This document shows, piece by piece, positions 52,571 through 60,660 of a DNA stretch of 64,000 bases. The notes below the pieces were generated by a model. It was not told the origin of the DNA. It did not search any database and worked only from the letters and a program-made list of their open reading frames with translations. Positions within the stretch are counted from its first letter, which is position 1, and each line of letters begins with the position of its first letter. Source of the stretch: Runella slithyformis DSM 19594 (GTDB lineage: Bacteria; Bacteroidota; Bacteroidia; Cytophagales; Spirosomataceae); the NCBI RefSeq assembly GCF_000218895.1, contig NC_015703.1:2679001-2743000 (forward strand). Reading direction: 5' to 3'. The position numbers and the translations under genes were made by a program.

Positions 52571-55500
52571 TTAAATGCTTTTCCCTGCTTTTTTGGTTTT
52601 TCGAATGACAAACGGAATGCACAGATTTTCAGGGCAACAGTTCGTTCCCGGTACAATGATGATTGGACAACATCCTCCTGCCGGGCAGGTGGCATTAAGA
52701 GCGGTAAAGGTATAAACGCCTGTTTGGGTCAATAATACTTCATTGCCCTGAGCTATTGGAGTTGGGCTGCCGGTCTTAAACCATTTCACATTAGTGTAGT
52801 TAGCAGGTACATTCAACTGTACTTTTTCGCCGGTACATAGTTTGATGGGTACAGTAAAGCATTGGACGTCTTTATCATCTTCGTTATCTTTACCATTGCC
52901 CGGGGTGGAATCCCGATCTTTTTCATTTGTTCGGCTGATTTCGGCCGTATTGTAATGGATTCCTGCCTGCATAACCTTACTTTTATAGGTCAACGTGACG
53001 GTATCTCCATTGGCAGCAACAGATCCGATGTTCCATTGGATAACATTATTGCTGATGGAAGCCAAACCGCGGGAAGATGTAAAAGAGCCCGGAATGAATT
53101 GTATCCCTGCCGGAATGCTATCGGTTACTTCAACGCCATTAGCCTTATTGGTAAATTCATTCCAAACTTTAATGGTGTAGATAAGAGTATCGCCGATATT
53201 GGCAATTTTACTGCTTATCCTTTTTTTAAGGGCCAAGTCAACTTCGCAATTTTGGACCGTTACAATCACAGGAGTACGAATAACAGAGGTACATAAGGGA
53301 GTTAACCCTGAAAGTACTACATAGAAGGTATCCGTTACGGCAGCTATACCGACCGGTTGGAAATTGAGTGTTGTGGCAAGAACATTTCCGCCGGTCGGGG
53401 CGTCGTACCATATTACGCCGGCACCTGTAACATTAGGTCCAATAACCGTTGCCTTCAAAATCGGAAAAGGTGAGCCTTTACATACCGTTGCATTGGGTGT
53501 AATTATGGATAATTGGGCGCAATCGCAATCCGGGGCCGTAAATGTAGTATCAAATTTACAGAAGGCTGTTACGCTGTCAGTAATCACTAGATTGACATTG
53601 TGCGGGATGTCAGTGATGGTGTAAGGGTTGCTGCCTGACACTGTCCCTGCGTTTACTTTAATGAAGCCATTTTGATTAACTACGGAGAGAGTAAGGCTAT
53701 AGACGGCCGCATTTGGAGAACACACCGGAGATGAAGACAGAACCCAGTTAGGTTTGTTACAGACAATAAAGACTCCACCGTCGAGGGTTGGATTATCCTT
53801 ATTTATTCCGGTTTGGGTCACATCAATTACAATGAATTGGCTCAAACCTGTAATTGGATCAAAGTCTGAATCCAAGCTGTCAGGTACTCCCGCAGCATTT
53901 TGGACTGTACTTAAAATCAGCCCTGAAGGAAGCGAAGCGGTCAGGATTTTGACTCTGTACGTACCATTGCTAAGGCTGTCAAAAGTATACAGTCCATTGC
54001 TGTTGGTGGTATCGGTAGCCAAAACGGTACCAATACTGTTAAGAAGTTGGACTACCACTCCCGGGATGCCCGGTTCACCGGCATCCTGCCGGCCATTGTT
54101 ATTAAGGTCTTTCCAGACAAAGTCGCCCAGAGAGCCCAATTTAGGTGCAAAACCTGCATCAGCCTTAAAATTATTTTGGCCTGCTGTGCCGGTAGTGAAC
54201 GTAAAAGTCAGATTGGCTCCGGTCGGTTCAAAATCAGAATCAATGTGATCGCTGGTGCTGTTAGCTATGGTAGGAAGTAAGCCGGCTAAGCTGCTTTGTG
54301 CAGCAAAATTACTGATTTTGAGGATGTATTTAGTGTTGAACTTTAGATTAGCCTGGTACTTGATATACGCCGGCCCGCCGGTTGTTGTTGCCGAAGAAAA
54401 ATAATATTGACCTCCGTTGCCCGTTTGTACAGAGGCCAGTGAATTGCCCATTGCATCACACAGCGTCACCGTTACGCCATCAATGCCTATTTCATTGGCA
54501 TCCTGCCTGCCATTTCTGTTTTTATCATTCCAGATTCGGTTACCGATCTCAATGGGTTGTGGGGCACAAAGTATCTCTAAACCGCCCAGACCGTTTGCTT
54601 TGCCATACCCATACACATCATTCCTATATAAAACCACTCCCCCATTTGGGTTAGGGTCTTCGCCGAAAGCGTCACCGTCTCGCTCTCCATTTGAATTGAT
54701 GAGGCGTTTAATTCCGCCGGTATTTTGCAATTCTGTCGGATTGATAGCCGTCATGGCTAACTTACCGCTTCCTGCCAGAAGCGCAAGTCCGGCTTGAGTG
54801 CTTATCTCATGGTTGGCGCCGTTTTGCGTGCGTTCACCCCAATAGTATTTTCCTCCACCTATTCCCGCAGCATTCGTTTGCTCTGCTGAAGTCGTACTGC
54901 CGCATACTGAGCCGCCGTTTTCAATCAGCCAGGTTCCGTTTGGCCCGCAGGGGCCCGCTCTCAGGACTTCGCCCGGACCGATGACAGTGTATAAATCGGG
55001 CTCATTTGCAATGGGTAATCTGTTTTCGAATCCCATCTGATCGCCAAAGCGATCTCTAAGCCCCACGATCATAGAGCCATCTACATCAAATTCAATATCA
55101 GTAAGCCATGCCTGAGGGTAGGTTTTAAAATTATTGTTACGGTCAGGCTCAAAATAAGGAAGCGGAATCCAAGGACGCCAACGCTGTGCTCTGGCGTCTC
55201 CGATAGGGGGGATATCAGCGTTGGAGGCACCCTTAATGTAGGTGAGCGGAAAGTGAAGAACTTGGGTGAAAGTGCCTTCCTTAAAAGCATAAACTGTGGC
55301 GGCCAGCCCTGTAGAGTCATTTTTCTCAAGGGCATCTTCGCGGGTACATACAACGCCTATATATACTTTATTACGATAATATTTAGTCGCAAACGGACGA
55401 TAACTTTTGCCGTTACAAGGGTTAGGAATAATGTAAGAGACGGTATCTTTGGTGGCTATGTCTAATGAATACAGCTTACGATTTTTGAGATTTATGACCC

Positions 55501-56413
55501 AAAGGGTTTTTCCGTCTTCAGAAATATCAAGACCTCCAAGGCTGGTCGTACCTACAGCATCATACGCCGGAATATCATAGCTGTCAAGACGAGCGTTGGG
55601 GGTAATATCATCGGGCAAATCCGTATGCATATCAACCCCGGCAATGGCACCAAAGTTAAAAAATTCGGTCGTGGAGGTATCTGTACTGCTAATGGAAGTA
55701 ACGAAAATGGCACCGGGCCCCTTTGCGGTAAAACCTACGTGGCGTTTTGTAAAAGCAGACGTAAAAACTTGAGCGGTTTCACGCTTGTAAGCAACGCCCC
55801 ACACCGAACCAAGATCTTTTACAAAAGCATAAGGGGAAATCTTTTTGGTTGAATCGATTCCTTCATAGGGGACACCCACTAATACATCTCTATAACCCAC
55901 TGAAGTGGTCGCGGCATTGACCGCTACGTAGCAGGTTGTTACAGTCTGCGGATTTTGTGTCTCGCAATAATGGTTTGGATAATTGATGCCCAGATCTACA
56001 CCGACCGAATTGCCGGCGGCAAACTGAACGGAGGTTTTGCTGCCGATGGGGTTGTATGGGCCATCGTAGTCGCTCTCCATAAAATCTTTAAATTCGATTC
56101 GCAAGGTATCGGATAAGGGAGCATTGTGGATCGTATAGGTTCCGTCATTCGCAGTACGGGTTGAGTCGGCCAGTGTACCGTCTTTTTTATAAGCACAGAC
56201 CAACACGTTTCCGGCGCCTATTTCACTAAAGCTGCCTATGATCGTTTTGAGGCCATCAGCATTAAAATCTCGGTATACTTTACCTTTGATTGTTTGTGCT
56301 TTGGCCGCTGTTCCCGCAATACAGCTAAGAAAAATAAGTGCCGGAATTACGAGAAAGATAGAATGTGGTACCCTTGCCCCCCTGAAGAGTACATGCCTGT
56401 ACAAAGCCCCCAT
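52571..56413 (-). CDS. 1280-aa secreted surface protein with SdrD B-like and DUF11 domains
   Basis: Signal peptide near the N-terminus (IFLVIPALIFLSCIAGTAAKA). A first SdrD_B-like domain starts at IKGKVYRDFNADGLKTI (about 41-130). A propeller-like region (about 200-600) includes SEDGKTLWVINLKNRKLY. Two SdrD_B domains follow: IGNRIWNDKNRNGRQDANE near 615 and LGDFVWKDLNNNGRQDAGEPG near 757. A DUF11 repeat near 1055 begins CEVDLALKKRISS. The end is Cys-rich (CPAGGCCPIIIVPGTNCCPENLCIPFVI) with a basic tail, and no recognisable type A or type B sorting domain. Probably a surface or matrix protein. A 942-bp gene-free region lies upstream. Confidence 0.85.
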   Translation of the reverse strand: MGALYRHVLFRGARVPHSIFLVIPALIFLSCIAGTAAKAQTIKGKVYRDFNADGLKTIIGSFSEIGAGNVLVCAYKKDGTLADSTRTANDGTYTIHNAPLSDTLRIEFKDFMESDYDGPYNPIGSKTSVQFAAGNSVGVDLGINYPNHYCETQNPQTVTTCYVAVNAATTSVGYRDVLVGVPYEGIDSTKKISPYAFVKDLGSVWGVAYKRETAQVFTSAFTKRHVGFTAKGPGAIFVTSISSTDTSTTEFFNFGAIAGVDMHTDLPDDITPNARLDSYDIPAYDAVGTTSLGGLDISEDGKTLWVINLKNRKLYSLDIATKDTVSYIIPNPCNGKSYRPFATKYYRNKVYIGVVCTREDALEKNDSTGLAATVYAFKEGTFTQVLHFPLTYIKGASNADIPPIGDARAQRWRPWIPLPYFEPDRNNNFKTYPQAWLTDIEFDVDGSMIVGLRDRFGDQMGFENRLPIANEPDLYTVIGPGEVLRAGPCGPNGTWLIENGGSVCGSTTSAEQTNAAGIGGGKYYWGERTQNGANHEISTQAGLALLAGSGKLAMTAINPTELQNTGGIKRLINSNGERDGDAFGEDPNPNGGVVLYRNDVYGYGKANGLGGLEILCAPQPIEIGNRIWNDKNRNGRQDANEIGIDGVTVTLCDAMGNSLASVQTGNGGQYYFSSATTTGGPAYIKYQANLKFNTKYILKISNFAAQSSLAGLLPTIANSTSDHIDSDFEPTGANLTFTFTTGTAGQNNFKADAGFAPKLGSLGDFVWKDLNNNGRQDAGEPGIPGVVVQLLNSIGTVLATDTTNSNGLYTFDSLSNGTYRVKILTASLPSGLILSTVQNAAGVPDSLDSDFDPITGLSQFIVIDVTQTGINKDNPTLDGGVFIVCNKPNWVLSSSPVCSPNAAVYSLTLSVVNQNGFIKVNAGTVSGSNPYTITDIPHNVNLVITDSVTAFCKFDTTFTAPDCDCAQLSIITPNATVCKGSPFPILKATVIGPNVTGAGVIWYDAPTGGNVLATTLNFQPVGIAAVTDTFYVVLSGLTPLCTSVIRTPVIVTVQNCEVDLALKKRISSKIANIGDTLIYTIKVWNEFTNKANGVEVTDSIPAGIQFIPGSFTSSRGLASISNNVIQWNIGSVAANGDTVTLTYKSKVMQAGIHYNTAEISRTNEKDRDSTPGNGKDNEDDKDVQCFTVPIKLCTGEKVQLNVPANYTNVKWFKTGSPTPIAQGNEVLLTQTGVYTFTALNATCPAGGCCPIIIVPGTNCCPENLCIPFVIRKTKKAGKSI

Positions 56414-57355: not shown

Positions 57356-58465
57356 TTAGATCAGAATCCCCTGCCTTACCAATTCTTTAAAAACATATTT
57401 CCCAAGAGCCTGTTTGGGATTGACAAACGGAGGTTTCAAAAGGTATTCTTTTAAGCCATCAGAAATTTCGTAGGTAGAATAAAGGATTTTATCAAACAGT
57501 ACCGGCGCATCCTGTAATTCAAAAATGCTGTATCTGCTGAAATTGAATTCGTACTGAATTCTTTTATAGGCAGAGTGAGGCGGTGACTGCAGTGATTCTT
57601 CCCGGTTAACTAATGCGTTATGAATATAATTCCATCCTTCCCATTGCTCAGGATAGGAAGCCACATACTTGGCAAAGAAATCAAATAGATACTGTAATGT
57701 TTGAGTTGAAAACTCTTCCCTGGTGATACCGGCTTCGGCCTTAATGGCTTCACCCAGGTAAAGCATATTGCTGCGGTCGGGCTTGCGGTATGAAACAACA
57801 GGAACAAGCGGGACTCCCGTAAGATAACTAAGGTAGGTCATGCCTTTTCGGGCGTTAATTTTTTGACTTAAAAAGTCGACCGGATCAAGTTTTTCATCCC
57901 CTGAGCCTGTATTCCCATCCAAATAGACCAGAAGTGATCGGCCTGATTTAAGCTCTCTGATCAATTTCAGGAGTATTTGGGGATCTTCGGCGTTGAGTAC
58001 ACTGACTTGGCTTTCAGTGTCGTATTTTTCTTTCATCCGAGCGGTGTAGCTCATCATGGATTCAAGTTGTTTATTATACACATCCTGCCTGACGATGGTA
58101 GAAAAATTGTGCCCCATACGGATGAGCATGTTGGCTATGATCCGATAAGAGCCTAGGTGAAAGGTACAAAAAATGTGGGGGGTACGAGCGGATTTCAGCG
58201 CTTTGACATTTCCTTTGACTTCGCAGAAATCACCTATTTGAAGTAGATTACGCTCGAAACTTTCAAAAGCCAGATTGTTTAATAAGCTTTTGAAAAGACC
58301 GAAGTGTTCTGATTGGGGGATTTCCGGGAGAAAGTTGGTAAGGTTGGCTGAAAAAATGGCAAACCTTACCGTAAATCCTTCCTCTTCGTGTAAATTGACT
58401 CGGTTGAGCGCGTCTTCACAGTCCAGAAGTGCACGTTGATAATTGGCTGAATCCGAGGTCTTCAT
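57356..58465 (-). CDS. Divergent lysophospholipid acyltransferase (LpxL/HtrB-like)
   Basis: 369 residues, cytoplasmic or membrane-associated, no clear span. The LPLAT-like core has IFCTFHLGSYRIIANML (about 97-113), in the place of HFGNWE: the His is kept but the acidic residue of the H-x4-(D/E) motif is Arg. LVYLDGNTGSGDE and INARKGMTYLSYLTGVPLVPVVSYR match the second and third LpxL blocks. A C-terminal tail of about 80 residues is extra. Its start lies 10 bp after the stop of a 58-aa peptide gene. I infer acylation of that peptide or a lipid; no published case is claimed. Confidence 0.7.
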   Translation of the reverse strand: MKTSDSANYQRALLDCEDALNRVNLHEEEGFTVRFAIFSANLTNFLPEIPQSEHFGLFKSLLNNLAFESFERNLLQIGDFCEVKGNVKALKSARTPHIFCTFHLGSYRIIANMLIRMGHNFSTIVRQDVYNKQLESMMSYTARMKEKYDTESQVSVLNAEDPQILLKLIRELKSGRSLLVYLDGNTGSGDEKLDPVDFLSQKINARKGMTYLSYLTGVPLVPVVSYRKPDRSNMLYLGEAIKAEAGITREEFSTQTLQYLFDFFAKYVASYPEQWEGWNYIHNALVNREESLQSPPHSAYKRIQYEFNFSRYSIFELQDAPVLFDKILYSTYEISDGLKEYLLKPPFVNPKQALGKYVFKELVRQGILI

Positions 58466-58475
58466 GCAATGATAA

Positions 58476-58652
58476 TTATAGAGCTAATGACTTTTCGGCC
58501 TGTTTTTCAATAGTGATACCATAGCAGGACGCCATTGGGTCTTTTCCGCCGAAGTTAAGAATACGGTTGGATTCATTTTTGGCAAAAAACTTACCTTCTT
58601 TGATGAATGAGTTCAATGCTTTTTTGGGTTCGATAGTGAATGAGTTTTTCAT
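58476..58652 (-). CDS. 58-aa peptide, candidate substrate of the acyltransferase
   Basis: Too short for most ORF filters. The sequence begins MKNSFTIEPKKALNSF, continues with IKEGKFFAKNESNRILNFGG, then KDPMASCYGITIEKQ, and ends AEKSLAL. It has one Cys, a Gly-Gly step between a basic helical N-part and a short C-part, and a TAnnTTTG box 100 bp upstream. The arrangement, leader plus GG plus small core and a dedicated enzyme gene 10 bp downstream, resembles RiPP precursor organisation. No family recognised; it could also be an accessory subunit. Confidence 0.55.
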   Translation of the reverse strand: MKNSFTIEPKKALNSFIKEGKFFAKNESNRILNFGGKDPMASCYGITIEKQAEKSLAL

Positions 58653-58751
58653 TGTTTTGGTTTTGATTTAATGAATGGAACAAGGGTTTTAAGACAGTGA
58701 TACGCAATGCGTTTTGAGAAAAGGTGGTTTTGTTGTTCTCTTCTGATAATG

Positions 58752-58759
58752 CAAAGGTA
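58752..58759 (-). promoter_or_regulatory. -7 box TACCTTTG for the peptide/acyltransferase operon
   Basis: Minus-strand TACCTTTG, 100 bp before the peptide ATG. Identical to the neuB box. Confidence 0.5.
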
Positions 58760-58772
58760 GCCTTCGGATATG

Positions 58773-58804
58773 TTGCAGGGTATCCGTACTAATTGCTATA
58801 TTTG
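58773..58804 (+). promoter_or_regulatory. Promoter TTG-N21-TATATTTG for the LytTR gene
   Basis: TTG at 58773-58775 and TATATTTG at 58797-58804, 21 bp apart. It lies 102 bp before the LytTR ATG. Confidence 0.6.
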
Positions 58805-58814
58805 TAGGGATTTA

Positions 58815-58856
58815 TAGTCACTATTGACTATTTTGTGCCTTTATGAAGTAGTCAAT
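58815..58856. promoter_or_regulatory. TAGTCA-N4-TGACTA operator with a third half-site
   Basis: Perfect 16-bp dyad at 58815-58830, directly after the predicted transcription start of the LytTR gene, plus another TAGTCAAT at 58849-58856 that forms an inverted repeat with ATTGACTA (58823-58830). Well placed for repression. Confidence 0.5.
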
Positions 58857-58906
58857 GTGAGGTAATGGAAGTTGTTATTTGGTAGTGTAGAGCGTATTAA
58901 CTTACA

Positions 58907-59893
58907 ATGAGTTCACTAACTCTGACTCGGTCCCTGTATCGAAGCCCACAAAATGGCTTGGTATTTCTGTTGGTTATAGTCCTGTTTTTCGAAATCATCG
59001 GATGGGCTATTTCTCCGCAAAATAAGCTGTACACCTATAGTTCGTACCAAACCCTTTTTTCGTATTTAAAAAACCTCTTTTTGGGGTTGCTTGCTCCTGA
59101 GTTTTGTACGTTATATATAATGGTGTTTTTAATTGATGCTTTTCACCGTTTTCTCGGCATCAGAAAAGTAAACATCAATTTCTCCTCAATGGTAAAATAT
59201 GAGGCTTCATTTTTACCATTGTTCATTATCTCTTTTTTCCTGTTCTTTCCTATTACCTTACATGTTCGCTTTTTGCTGAGAGAGTTTCCGCATTACTCAT
59301 TGAATCGGTATATTGACCTGTATGTTTTTCAGGGGTTTACTTTACAGACCTACCTTATGTATCTGCCGTTCGTTGTATTGCTGGGGTACATTTTGGTGAA
59401 TGCCGCACTCGTTAAAGATTTTCTGGACAGTGGTTTATCTGCAAAAGGTGTTGTTACAAAAGCACTCAAAACGGGGCCCTTTTCGCAAATACAGCCCCTA
59501 TCTCCTGCCTTGGCAGTAGGGGAAGTTGAAAAAAAGGACGTCTACCCGCGTGTTATTGAAGCCAAAATGGGTACAGGCGATATCTATTTAAAATTGGAAG
59601 AATGTTATTATTTCGAAACAGATGAAGAGCGCTACTATGTAGTGCATCCCAAGGGTCGTTTTCGCGTAATGAAACCATTGTCCATTTTAGAGGAGGAATT
59701 AAATCCCCTGCACTTCTTTAGGGCGCACCGAAGTTATCTCATAAACCTTGACCACCTAAACAGTTATATCTACTGGGAAAAAGGAAAGTACATTATCTAC
59801 ATGAGAGCGGCTGATGAACTCAAAGAAATCATGATGTCTCGTCAGCGTTTCCCTGCTTTTAAAGATGCTTTGGCAGCCAATCGAAGCCGTTGA
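58907..59893 (+). CDS. Membrane-anchored LytTR transcription regulator
   Basis: 328 residues. About four membrane spans (near 20-36, 53-75, 99-120 and 148-168), then a linker and a C-terminal LytTR domain (about 220-320): DIYLKLEECYYFETDEERYYVVHPKGRF, FFRAHRSYLINLDHLNSYIYW. It has no receiver domain, so phosphotransfer is not expected. This is a one-component membrane regulator that presumably senses in or at the membrane. Its promoter region faces the peptide operon. Confidence 0.88.
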   Translation: MSSLTLTRSLYRSPQNGLVFLLVIVLFFEIIGWAISPQNKLYTYSSYQTLFSYLKNLFLGLLAPEFCTLYIMVFLIDAFHRFLGIRKVNINFSSMVKYEASFLPLFIISFFLFFPITLHVRFLLREFPHYSLNRYIDLYVFQGFTLQTYLMYLPFVVLLGYILVNAALVKDFLDSGLSAKGVVTKALKTGPFSQIQPLSPALAVGEVEKKDVYPRVIEAKMGTGDIYLKLEECYYFETDEERYYVVHPKGRFRVMKPLSILEEELNPLHFFRAHRSYLINLDHLNSYIYWEKGKYIIYMRAADELKEIMMSRQRFPAFKDALAANRSR

Positions 59894-59903
59894 TACTGTA
59901 CAC

Positions 59904-60584
59904 CTATAACGTATTGATGTGCGATTTGATCTGTAAGCCAAACTTCAAAAGCTGCCGGTTACTTTCCAGTCCCAATTTATGAATCAGGTTTTGCTTATGA
60001 TTGGCTAATGTTCGATAGCTGATACAAAGCGAATCGGAAATCTCATAGCCGGTCAATCCTTCGGTCACTAAGTAAAGAATCTGCTTTTCCCGTTTCGTCA
60101 GAGTTTTTAGTTTTTGCTTTGTCTCACTGTCTATTTCCCTCAGGCCCTGCTTTTTGATCAAATCTTTAAATCCATCGCTGTAATACTTGGATTGTGTTTG
60201 AATGTACAGCATGCACTTGTAGAGCTCTTCCAGACGATCTTCAGAGTATAAATATCCTTGAAAATTGGCATCAAGGGCTTTGGTCAACTCTTTTGAATTG
60301 GAATTATTGAAGTAAAGGACCAATTTGGGAGGATGGCAGGATTCTGATAATTCTTTTAATAGATGGTTTGTTTCTTTCCCAATCAGGTTTGCCTCCACAA
60401 TGACGCATTTGGGCTTTTTGGTATGGATTTTTTGGATAAGGTCGTTTAGCTCATTGGCGCGGCCCACTACGTCAAAGCCTTCTCTTTCCAGCAGTTTACT
60501 TAAGACTTCGCAGGAAAACGGTTCCTCTTTTGCTACCAATACAGAAGAGTCAACTTTGCGAAGCCGCATTTCATTGTTTTTCAT
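59904..60584 (-). CDS. NarL/LuxR-type regulator with degenerate receiver domain
   Basis: 226 residues from the ATG at 60584; the frame extends to 60623 but the extra residues look non-coding. Receiver fold at about 12-125: the acidic pair is replaced (VLVAKEEPF), the phosphoacceptor Asp position is Glu64 (CVIVEANLIG), and the conserved Lys is Ser (GYLYSEDRLEEL). The LuxR HTH is intact: LTKREKQILYLVTEG, GYEISDSLCISYRTLANHKQNLIHKLG. It probably acts without phosphorylation. It lies 10 bp from, and convergent with, the LytTR gene. Confidence 0.88.
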   Translation of the reverse strand: MKNNEMRLRKVDSSVLVAKEEPFSCEVLSKLLEREGFDVVGRANELNDLIQKIHTKKPKCVIVEANLIGKETNHLLKELSESCHPPKLVLYFNNSNSKELTKALDANFQGYLYSEDRLEELYKCMLYIQTQSKYYSDGFKDLIKKQGLREIDSETKQKLKTLTKREKQILYLVTEGLTGYEISDSLCISYRTLANHKQNLIHKLGLESNRQLLKFGLQIKSHINTL

Positions 60585-60660
60585 AGTCGTTTTGTGAGTA
60601 TAGTTTAATCGGTTTTGTATCAAGATACATTAAGCTCTACTCCAAACGCAAGATTTTTCC

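Follow-up and report, generated by a model that had tools for sequence, protein, structure and literature searches.

What does a 58-codon open reading frame (ORF) contribute to a bacterial locus when it lies 10 bp upstream of a gene for an LpxL/HtrB-like acyltransferase? The question arises in Runella slithyformis DSM 19594, within a stretch of 64,000 nucleotides (contig NC_015703.1, positions 2,679,001 to 2,743,000; here called the window), where the two genes are faced by a divergent gene for a membrane LytTR regulator and accompanied by a gene for a LuxR/NarL-type regulator (Table 1). A reading of this DNA made from its letters alone (the sequence-only reading) had proposed a lipidated-peptide system, and our analysis supported that interpretation: the ORF is conserved upstream of the enzyme, the enzyme carries a domain like the recognition element (RRE) of ribosomally synthesized and posttranslationally modified peptides (RiPPs), and distant homologs of the enzyme lie beside RiPP-type or fatty acid synthase genes. 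The arrangement by which a RiPP locus is recognized, a small ribosomal precursor gene beside a candidate modifying enzyme, is present, and we consider it likely that the locus makes a RiPP precursor that is fatty acylated by this enzyme, the LPLAT-RRE enzyme (LPLAT, lysophospholipid acyltransferase).

The coordinates given by the sequence-only reading for the short frame and its gap to the enzyme gene proved exact. Compared with its counterpart in the nearest Runella, the peptide gene showed 25.5 synonymous and 10.5 nonsynonymous differences over 58 codons (proportions of synonymous and nonsynonymous differences, pS and pN, of 0.73 and 0.08), and comparison with two more distant Runella gave pN values of 0.25 and 0.28 and pS values of 0.74 and 0.72; decay of the frame was not seen. 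A homologous ORF occupies the same place in the window, in nine further Runella genomes and in the remainder of the Runella-Spirosoma clade, the loci of which are kin and not independent, for all clade counts given here. A small upstream ORF of this type, the conservation of which the sequence-only reading had singled out as the check on its proposal, accompanied 17/17 close acyltransferase homologs (L006 and L008-L023; L and G numbers denote loci and genomes); upstream of the distant homologs L024-L026 (3/3), a small ORF of the clade type was not found. Because the substitutions are mostly silent and a homologous ORF lies upstream throughout the clade, we concluded from these comparisons that the 58-residue frame is a real gene under purifying selection. 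Searches of the R. slithyformis genome found no second copy (next match, E 0.47), and the earlier failure to recognize a family for the peptide was borne out, with no Pfam match and NCBIfam scores below cut-off (14.7 bits versus 500).

Alignment of 31 clade peptides revealed one invariant cysteine (31/31), Cys43 of the window peptide. The first half of these peptides is free of cysteine and the last cysteine stands 12 to 20 residues before the C terminus; serine also occurs in the C-terminal half of every one of the 31. The leader keeps the pattern M-K-(K)-x-F-x-I, with A-K-x-E mostly retained, and has a median net charge of +4. The Gly-Gly step that had been noted between the two parts of the peptide (FGGKDP) did not hold up beyond the window, its relatives having FGDKDP, LGESDP, FDYDNA and others, and we dropped Gly-Gly as a cleavage cue since it occurs in the window peptide alone.

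The enzyme matched Lip_A_acyltrans (PF03279) across residues 86 to 275. Its AlphaFold (AF2) model (predicted local distance difference test score [pLDDT], 91.9; predicted TM score, 0.89), searched with Foldseek, retrieved PatA of M. smegmatis (E 3.0e-13; TM 0.76 by target), LpxM (5.2e-12) and PlsC (7.6e-5), and these three proteins account for all 16 matches with E <=0.001. Its counterpart of the HX4(D/E) motif, previously read as H-L-G-S-Y-R, was confirmed as F-H-L-G-S-Y-R. Judged by sequence and model, the enzyme is a member of the LPLAT (LpxL-HtrB) family in its fold and catalytic histidine and has HX4R where the family has HX4(D/E). In an enzyme tree (n=66, omitting eleven rows comprising near-copies, L110 and L111, as well as L082 and L116), all 32 clade members used fell on one side of a branch (SH-aLRT [Shimodaira-Hasegawa-like approximate likelihood ratio test] support, 96); many deep branches were long or open. 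In an even sample of 395 genomes of the phylum, 4 had an enzyme match at 1e-20.

In its model (pLDDT 95.4), the C-terminal stretch of 66 residues comprises three strands and three helices. When this domain was searched with Foldseek against 350,542 PDB chains, the top five matches were 5v1v, 5why (two chains), 6jx3 and 5v1u, of which 5v1v, 5v1u and 6jx3 are lasso B1 proteins with leader (TbiB1 in the case of 5v1v and 5v1u); 5why we take to be CteB bearing an RRE, the matched range within it not being displayed. SuiB and the PbtF RRE followed at ranks 13, 14 and 16. Probabilities in this search went up to 0.87. In hhalign, a profile of the domain (four short C termini dropped) aligned to 30 PqqD-family sequences from Bacteroidota at 48% (E 1.8e-4); among the controls, no column shuffle (n=20) exceeded 1.6%, and LytTR, LuxR and receiver domains stayed at or below 0.8%. 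We read the C-terminal domain as RRE-like, a reading backed by fold retrieval more than by sequence.

Distant homologs of the enzyme also tend to have candidate precursors. Of 72 loci (L046-L117), 68 had a small ORF with cysteine, detected by a profile of clade peptides in 40, by another profile, built on precursors whose leader is of ELEER type, in 14 loci outside the clade, and by eye in 14, the last without statistical control and from an ORF listing that took only Cys-containing frames. The clade profile matched an ORF upstream of the acyltransferase in 40/40 Runella-Spirosoma loci of this set, five of which (L073, L076, L077, L079 and L116) carry two or three copies. Both profiles, used in place of a narrow regular expression that missed known precursors, were trained on set members (31 and 16 sequences), the matches to which arise by construction; the second also finds precursors in L099, L109 and L149, none of them training members. 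NCBIfam assigned no family to ten precursors, one weak chance match aside. When 27 distant cores were scored for eight residue types (C, S, T, K, R, Y, D and E), only cysteine was present in all 27, a result to be read in light of the Cys-filtered ORF list and the picking of many precursors with cysteine in view; 3/27 contained neither lysine nor arginine.

The neighbors of 35 distant loci, for which one representative of each cluster was named, included M50-like (12), arginase-family (8), ATP-grasp (7), SPASM partner (6) and S41 peptidase (5) genes, together with LytTR response regulators (11) and histidine kinases (10). The arginase-family representative scored above its cut-off (4.1e-55); the ATP-grasp/SPASM representatives (TIGR04192, 2e-55; TIGR04193, 4.6e-30) and the M50 representative (Pfam, 5.9e-5; daptide-type protease, 2.9e-26) scored below theirs, and the others were a LytTR protein with a receiver, a PF06580 kinase and an S41 peptidase. 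Radical S-adenosylmethionine (SAM)/SPASM genes occur in L040 (TIGR04463, 1.8e-62) and L117, the best maturase-family scores lying below cut-offs. Ketosynthase and FabA-type dehydratase genes accompany arginase and M50 genes in L095 and L109, the latter also having a carrier protein gene.

In the Runella-Spirosoma clade, the peptide and enzyme genes form part of a four-gene module. The divergent gene had been described as a four-span LytTR regulator without a receiver domain, and so it appears: it has a LytTR match, no receiver match and four hydrophobic stretches in its N-terminal half. Because it adjoins the enzyme gene in 43/43 clade loci (one place being counted twice, as L043 and L048), gene context indicates that it is a member of the module. 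The LuxR-type gene is present in 40/43 of these loci, the remaining three being cut stretches; for two of the three (G015 and G016), a longer stretch shows the gene. The LytTR frame of G015 is split in two ORFs and the LuxR match of L073 is a 140-residue piece. At E 1e-20, the relatives (n=59) with the LuxR gene were the 17 whose enzyme is of the four-gene kind, plus G006; G050 gave a weak match. The LytTR membrane half had the same distribution at that threshold, along with weaker matches elsewhere, G014 being one. In G006, the LuxR gene is present with a part of the LytTR gene and no enzyme, which is probably an assembly gap because the contig ends there, at the LytTR gene. The receiver of the LuxR-type protein seems degenerate, reading VAKEEP and VIVEANLIG at what we take to be the acidic and phospho-Asp places. 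Conservation is lowest in the LytTR membrane half (53%, against 70% in the LytTR DNA-binding half, 74% in the enzyme and 83% in the LuxR receiver half), a pherotype-like variability that fits, without proving, co-evolution with a ligand.

Between the divergent genes lies a palindrome, a relaxed form of which, T(A/G)GTnA-N4-TnACTA, occurs upstream of the peptide gene in 43/44 regions (41 of 42 distinct places, two being held twice, as L018/L034 and L033/L053). It stands 70 to 71 bp 5' of the -7 element wherever TAnnTTTG, which we take to be the Bacteroidota-type consensus, was found (42/44). Only 1 of 2200 dinucleotide shuffles contained the palindrome, a comparison that tests chance only, as the motif was derived from the same 44 regions. 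A single genomic occurrence of the strict operator pattern carries no significance of its own, since the backward control is present three times. The conserved palindrome suggests local regulation only. The LuxR-type protein is the first candidate for acting on it because a 6-4-6 palindrome presumably suits a LuxR/NarL-type dimer; the LytTR protein is also possible.

Table 1. Positions of the module's genes and of elements within and between them (coordinates are those of the window)
Feature	Position	Strand	Evidence or remark
58-aa precursor peptide gene	58476..58652	-	Leader MKNSFTIEPKKALNSFIKEGKFFAKNE; core with invariant Cys43
Cys43 codon	58524..58526	-	Proposed (inferred) acyl acceptor; column 31/31, plus distant precursors, many chosen with Cys in view
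LPLAT-RRE acyltransferase, 369 aa	57356..58465	-	PF03279, 1.9e-9; AF2 pLDDT 91.9; Foldseek PatA/LpxM
Catalytic-motif block CTFHLGSYR, residues 100-108	58142..58168	-	HX4R replaces HX4(D/E)
C-terminal 66-residue winged-helix domain, RRE (PqqD)-like	57359..57556	-	AF2, Foldseek, hhalign
-7 element TACCTTTG of peptide promoter, Bacteroidota-type	58752..58759	-	TAnnTTTG, 42/44 upstream regions
Palindromic candidate operator TAGTCA-N4-TGACTA	58815..58830	.	Between divergent genes; relaxed motif in 43/44 regions
Membrane LytTR regulator with four spans and no receiver domain; putative sensor	58907..59893	+	LytTR, 7.2e-19; hydropathy
LuxR/NarL-type regulator, 226 aa from ATG	59904..60584	-	GerE, 1.4e-13; Response_reg, 7.3e-9; TTG start at 60623 possible

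How might these parts work together? We infer that the winged-helix domain would bind the basic leader of the precursor in the fashion of an RRE, and that the LPLAT domain would then transfer a fatty acyl group from acyl-acyl carrier protein or acyl-coenzyme A to the core, most likely to Cys43 as an S-acyl group that might move to nitrogen after cleavage. Leader removal and release of the lipopeptide would fall to unlinked host proteases and exporters. Within the Runella-Spirosoma clade, the product or its level would be read by the four-span LytTR protein, the LuxR-type protein or both, which would act on the candidate operator and so feed back on the peptide promoter. That the peptide is the substrate of the acyltransferase we regard as very probable, and that its modification is fatty acylation as probable; for cysteine as the acceptor we have a slight preference, lowered a little from our earlier estimate because many distant precursors were picked with cysteine in view. 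A signalling role for the product falls somewhat short of an even chance. By analogy, a lipopeptide pheromone is plausible, if unproven. We advance tentatively, as less likely than not, the full version of this scheme, in which the locus would be a Bacteroidota peptide quorum-sensing system, with an LPLAT-RRE enzyme acylating cysteine and a one-component four-span LytTR receptor and its LuxR-type partner driving their own promoter, a fatty-acyl counterpart of ComQXPA, and in which the enzyme family would define a broad class of Cys-acylated RiPPs.

Several observations weigh against a RiPP fatty acylated by an LPLAT-RRE enzyme. Besides the uncontrolled by-eye ORFs, no precursor was found in four of the 72 loci (L097, L098, L110 and L115, of which L097 and L110 are short or cut) or in L042, and the distance between precursor and enzyme gene is large in some distant loci, about 8 kb in L091 and about 15 kb in L149. 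The M50, ATP-grasp/SPASM and radical-SAM assignments fall below curated cut-offs. For the C-terminal domain, Foldseek E values reach 0.49 at best, with WW domains from rank 6; hhalign goes no higher than the 48% to PqqD and gives just 3.7% against the PqqD-like N-terminal domain of the neighboring M50 family; Pfam found no PqqD match in five such domains; and a profile search against PDB sequences yielded a best E of 0.11, to an unrelated protein. None of the 19 genomes compared pointed to a conserved protease or exporter in the module, and we dropped the idea of a dedicated one. Finally, the acid of HX4(D/E) is mostly arginine, because of which acyltransferase activity is not assured.

The strongest alternative, that the locus yields a secreted lipopeptide, antimicrobial or otherwise, of which the two regulators merely control production, with no signal involved, has a substantial chance, though below one half. 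The same enzyme family elsewhere adjoins RiPP-type modification and protease genes, and LytTR response regulators (11/35) and PF06580 kinases (10/35) near the distant loci suggest that control by LytTR may be common to such clusters in general; autoinduction is, moreover, known for lantibiotics. Yet no gene cluster beyond the enzyme, peptide, LytTR and LuxR genes was common to more than 9 of the 19 genomes, which leaves the fixed set without an immunity or transport gene, and in L081, L093, L094 and L102 the only families (>=90 residues) common to all four are the LPLAT, a kinase and a LytTR regulator, set beside a Cys-bearing ORF in a signalling-like layout.

Loss of acyl transfer, leaving a protein that binds, chaperones or delivers the peptide to the membrane, is unlikely, although HX4R gives it some ground: none of the 71 enzymes that have the column carries D or E at the acid position. 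Position 108 was Arg in 47, Gln in 3, Pro in 1 and Ser in 1 of 52 chosen enzymes, and in a separate alignment of 72 (without L082, the start of which is unclear, and L116) it was Arg in 65, Gln in 4, Lys in 1 and Pro in 1, the one gap being a partial frame. Nevertheless, the histidine at the catalytic position is present in 71/71 enzymes having that column (the same kind of gap accounting for one further row), and H103, Y107, D183, G208 and W275 are invariant (52/52) in an active-site-like manner, a conservation partly built in, as two patterns of the scan of named genomes (70 loci) include parts of the conserved motifs. Fatty acid synthase genes neighbor one branch of the enzyme, and PatA is reported to use an acid outside the HX4(D/E) motif.

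Slightly less probable still is a role of the enzyme in acylating lipid A or some ordinary membrane lipid, with the peptide as its small regulator. The Pfam family name and the closest structures, PatA and LpxM, which act on glycolipids, speak for this. However, enzyme homologs occur in just 20/59 relatives, which does not look like core lipid metabolism; the best NCBIfam matches reach about 21 bits, far under cut-offs of 209 to 273; and the RRE-like domain, the RiPP-type neighbors in distant clades and the different type of precursor found elsewhere all speak against it. That the cysteine is instead lipidated by Lgt, Lsp and Lnt, as in the diacylglycerol (DAG)-RiPPs described from Bacteroidota (PMC12636315), is very improbable despite the invariant cysteine, since a dedicated acyltransferase adjoins and the 31 leaders, judged by hydropathy alone and not by a predictor, have no signal-peptide hydrophobic core before the cysteine (12-residue mean hydropathy at most 1.23, median 0.71).

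If the locus does make a fatty-acylated RiPP, how does it relate to known systems? Selidamides, nostolysamides, lipolanthines, goadvionins and lipoavitides are fatty acylated by GCN5-related N-acetyltransferase (GNAT) enzymes, according to PMC9505594 and PMC13060382. The proposal from genes made here shares with them a ribosomal precursor fatty acylated by an enzyme of its own cluster, whereas that enzyme is not a GNAT but an LPLAT of the PatA/LpxM fold with an RRE-like domain. Selidamides acylate lysine or ornithine, whereas the invariant core residue here is cysteine; phaeornamide stands beside a peptide arginase, and some distant homologs likewise adjoin arginase-family or fatty acid synthase genes. 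In work on daptides (PMC10036551), acyltransferases appear as entries PF00583 and TIGR01575. DAG-RiPPs (PMC12636315) are Cys-bearing peptides of Bacteroidota that are lipidated through a signal peptide and the general lipoprotein pathway; the peptides here are also Cys-bearing, yet they lack a signal-peptide core and have an acyltransferase dedicated to them. The LPLAT-RRE enzyme shares its fold and the invariant histidine with mycobacterial PatA and with LpxM and differs from both in HX4R, the C-terminal domain and the peptide partner. The genes named included no lanthionine synthetase.

ComA is a LuxR-type regulator. The module resembles ComQXPA in layout and logic in that its four genes would specify a lipid-transferring enzyme, a short precursor, a membrane sensor and a LuxR-type regulator. 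On this comparison it is not a member, because ComQ and the kinase are absent: an acyltransferase fold replaces the isoprenyl transferase, and a one-component membrane LytTR protein replaces the histidine kinase. Its genes are divergent and convergent, whereas those of ComQXPA share one strand. A ComQXPA census (PMC4008528) gives ComX precursors of 52 to 73 residues in B. subtilis strains and reports no loci outside Firmicutes. The four-gene module offers a compact candidate, open to experiment, for lipopeptide signalling in a phylum, Bacteroidota, from which that census had no such loci.

With a PatA/LpxM-type acyltransferase that itself carries a leader-binding domain, RiPP lipidation would have a further enzymatic route beside GNATs and the lipoprotein pathway, one that may point to acylation of cysteine instead of an amine. 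The enzyme is seen in several Bacteroidota families and some records titled Pseudomonadota, and such clusters would be easily overlooked because the family libraries searched give the enzyme lipid-acyltransferase matches only. A literature search by titles and abstract openings, with subscription papers mostly outside its scope, found no LPLAT acting on a RiPP, which does not establish absence in print.

In agr-type signalling, a small ORF and a modifying enzyme are joined by a histidine kinase and a LytTR regulator. The Chitinophagaceae-like loci L081 (7625-10903), L093, L094 and L102 have a Cys-bearing small ORF, the LPLAT-RRE enzyme, a histidine kinase and a LytTR response regulator in a row, an agr-like layout that is perhaps the cleanest test case. 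They differ from agr in that the modifier is an acyltransferase, not AgrB, and the named member of the kinase cluster (from L083) is of PF06580.

A few further observations concern individual loci. In the window, a 1280-residue protein is encoded downstream of the enzyme gene (52571-56413), and proteins of the same cluster lie near the module in 8/19 genomes, all Runella. Loci L109 (5340-11511) and L095 (4060-14396) look like hybrids, combining RiPP-type genes (arginase, M50 and precursors) with ketosynthase, carrier-protein-like and dehydratase genes. We had considered the FabF/FabZ branch of the enzyme to be aryl-polyene-like, peptide-free clusters and dropped this, as precursor-like ORFs occur in 4/6 loci (L041, via L149; L089; L091; and L095; none in L098 or L115), and L109 also has one. 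The contig of L091 is titled Thalassovita, although its enzyme groups with those of Bacteroidota and its gene content is common to them, and it may be misbinned. Tandem precursor arrays, six in L083 (11428-12706) and twelve profile matches in L088 (1062-5267), lie near arginase-family and M50 genes, those of L088 also near grasp-with-spasm genes. In the gammaproteobacterial metagenome-assembled genomes represented by L101, L105 and L114, a 47- to 49-residue peptide with CRVV(V)F near its end precedes the enzyme, which is followed by a choline-dehydrogenase-like glucose-methanol-choline (GMC) oxidoreductase, named from the L114 member.

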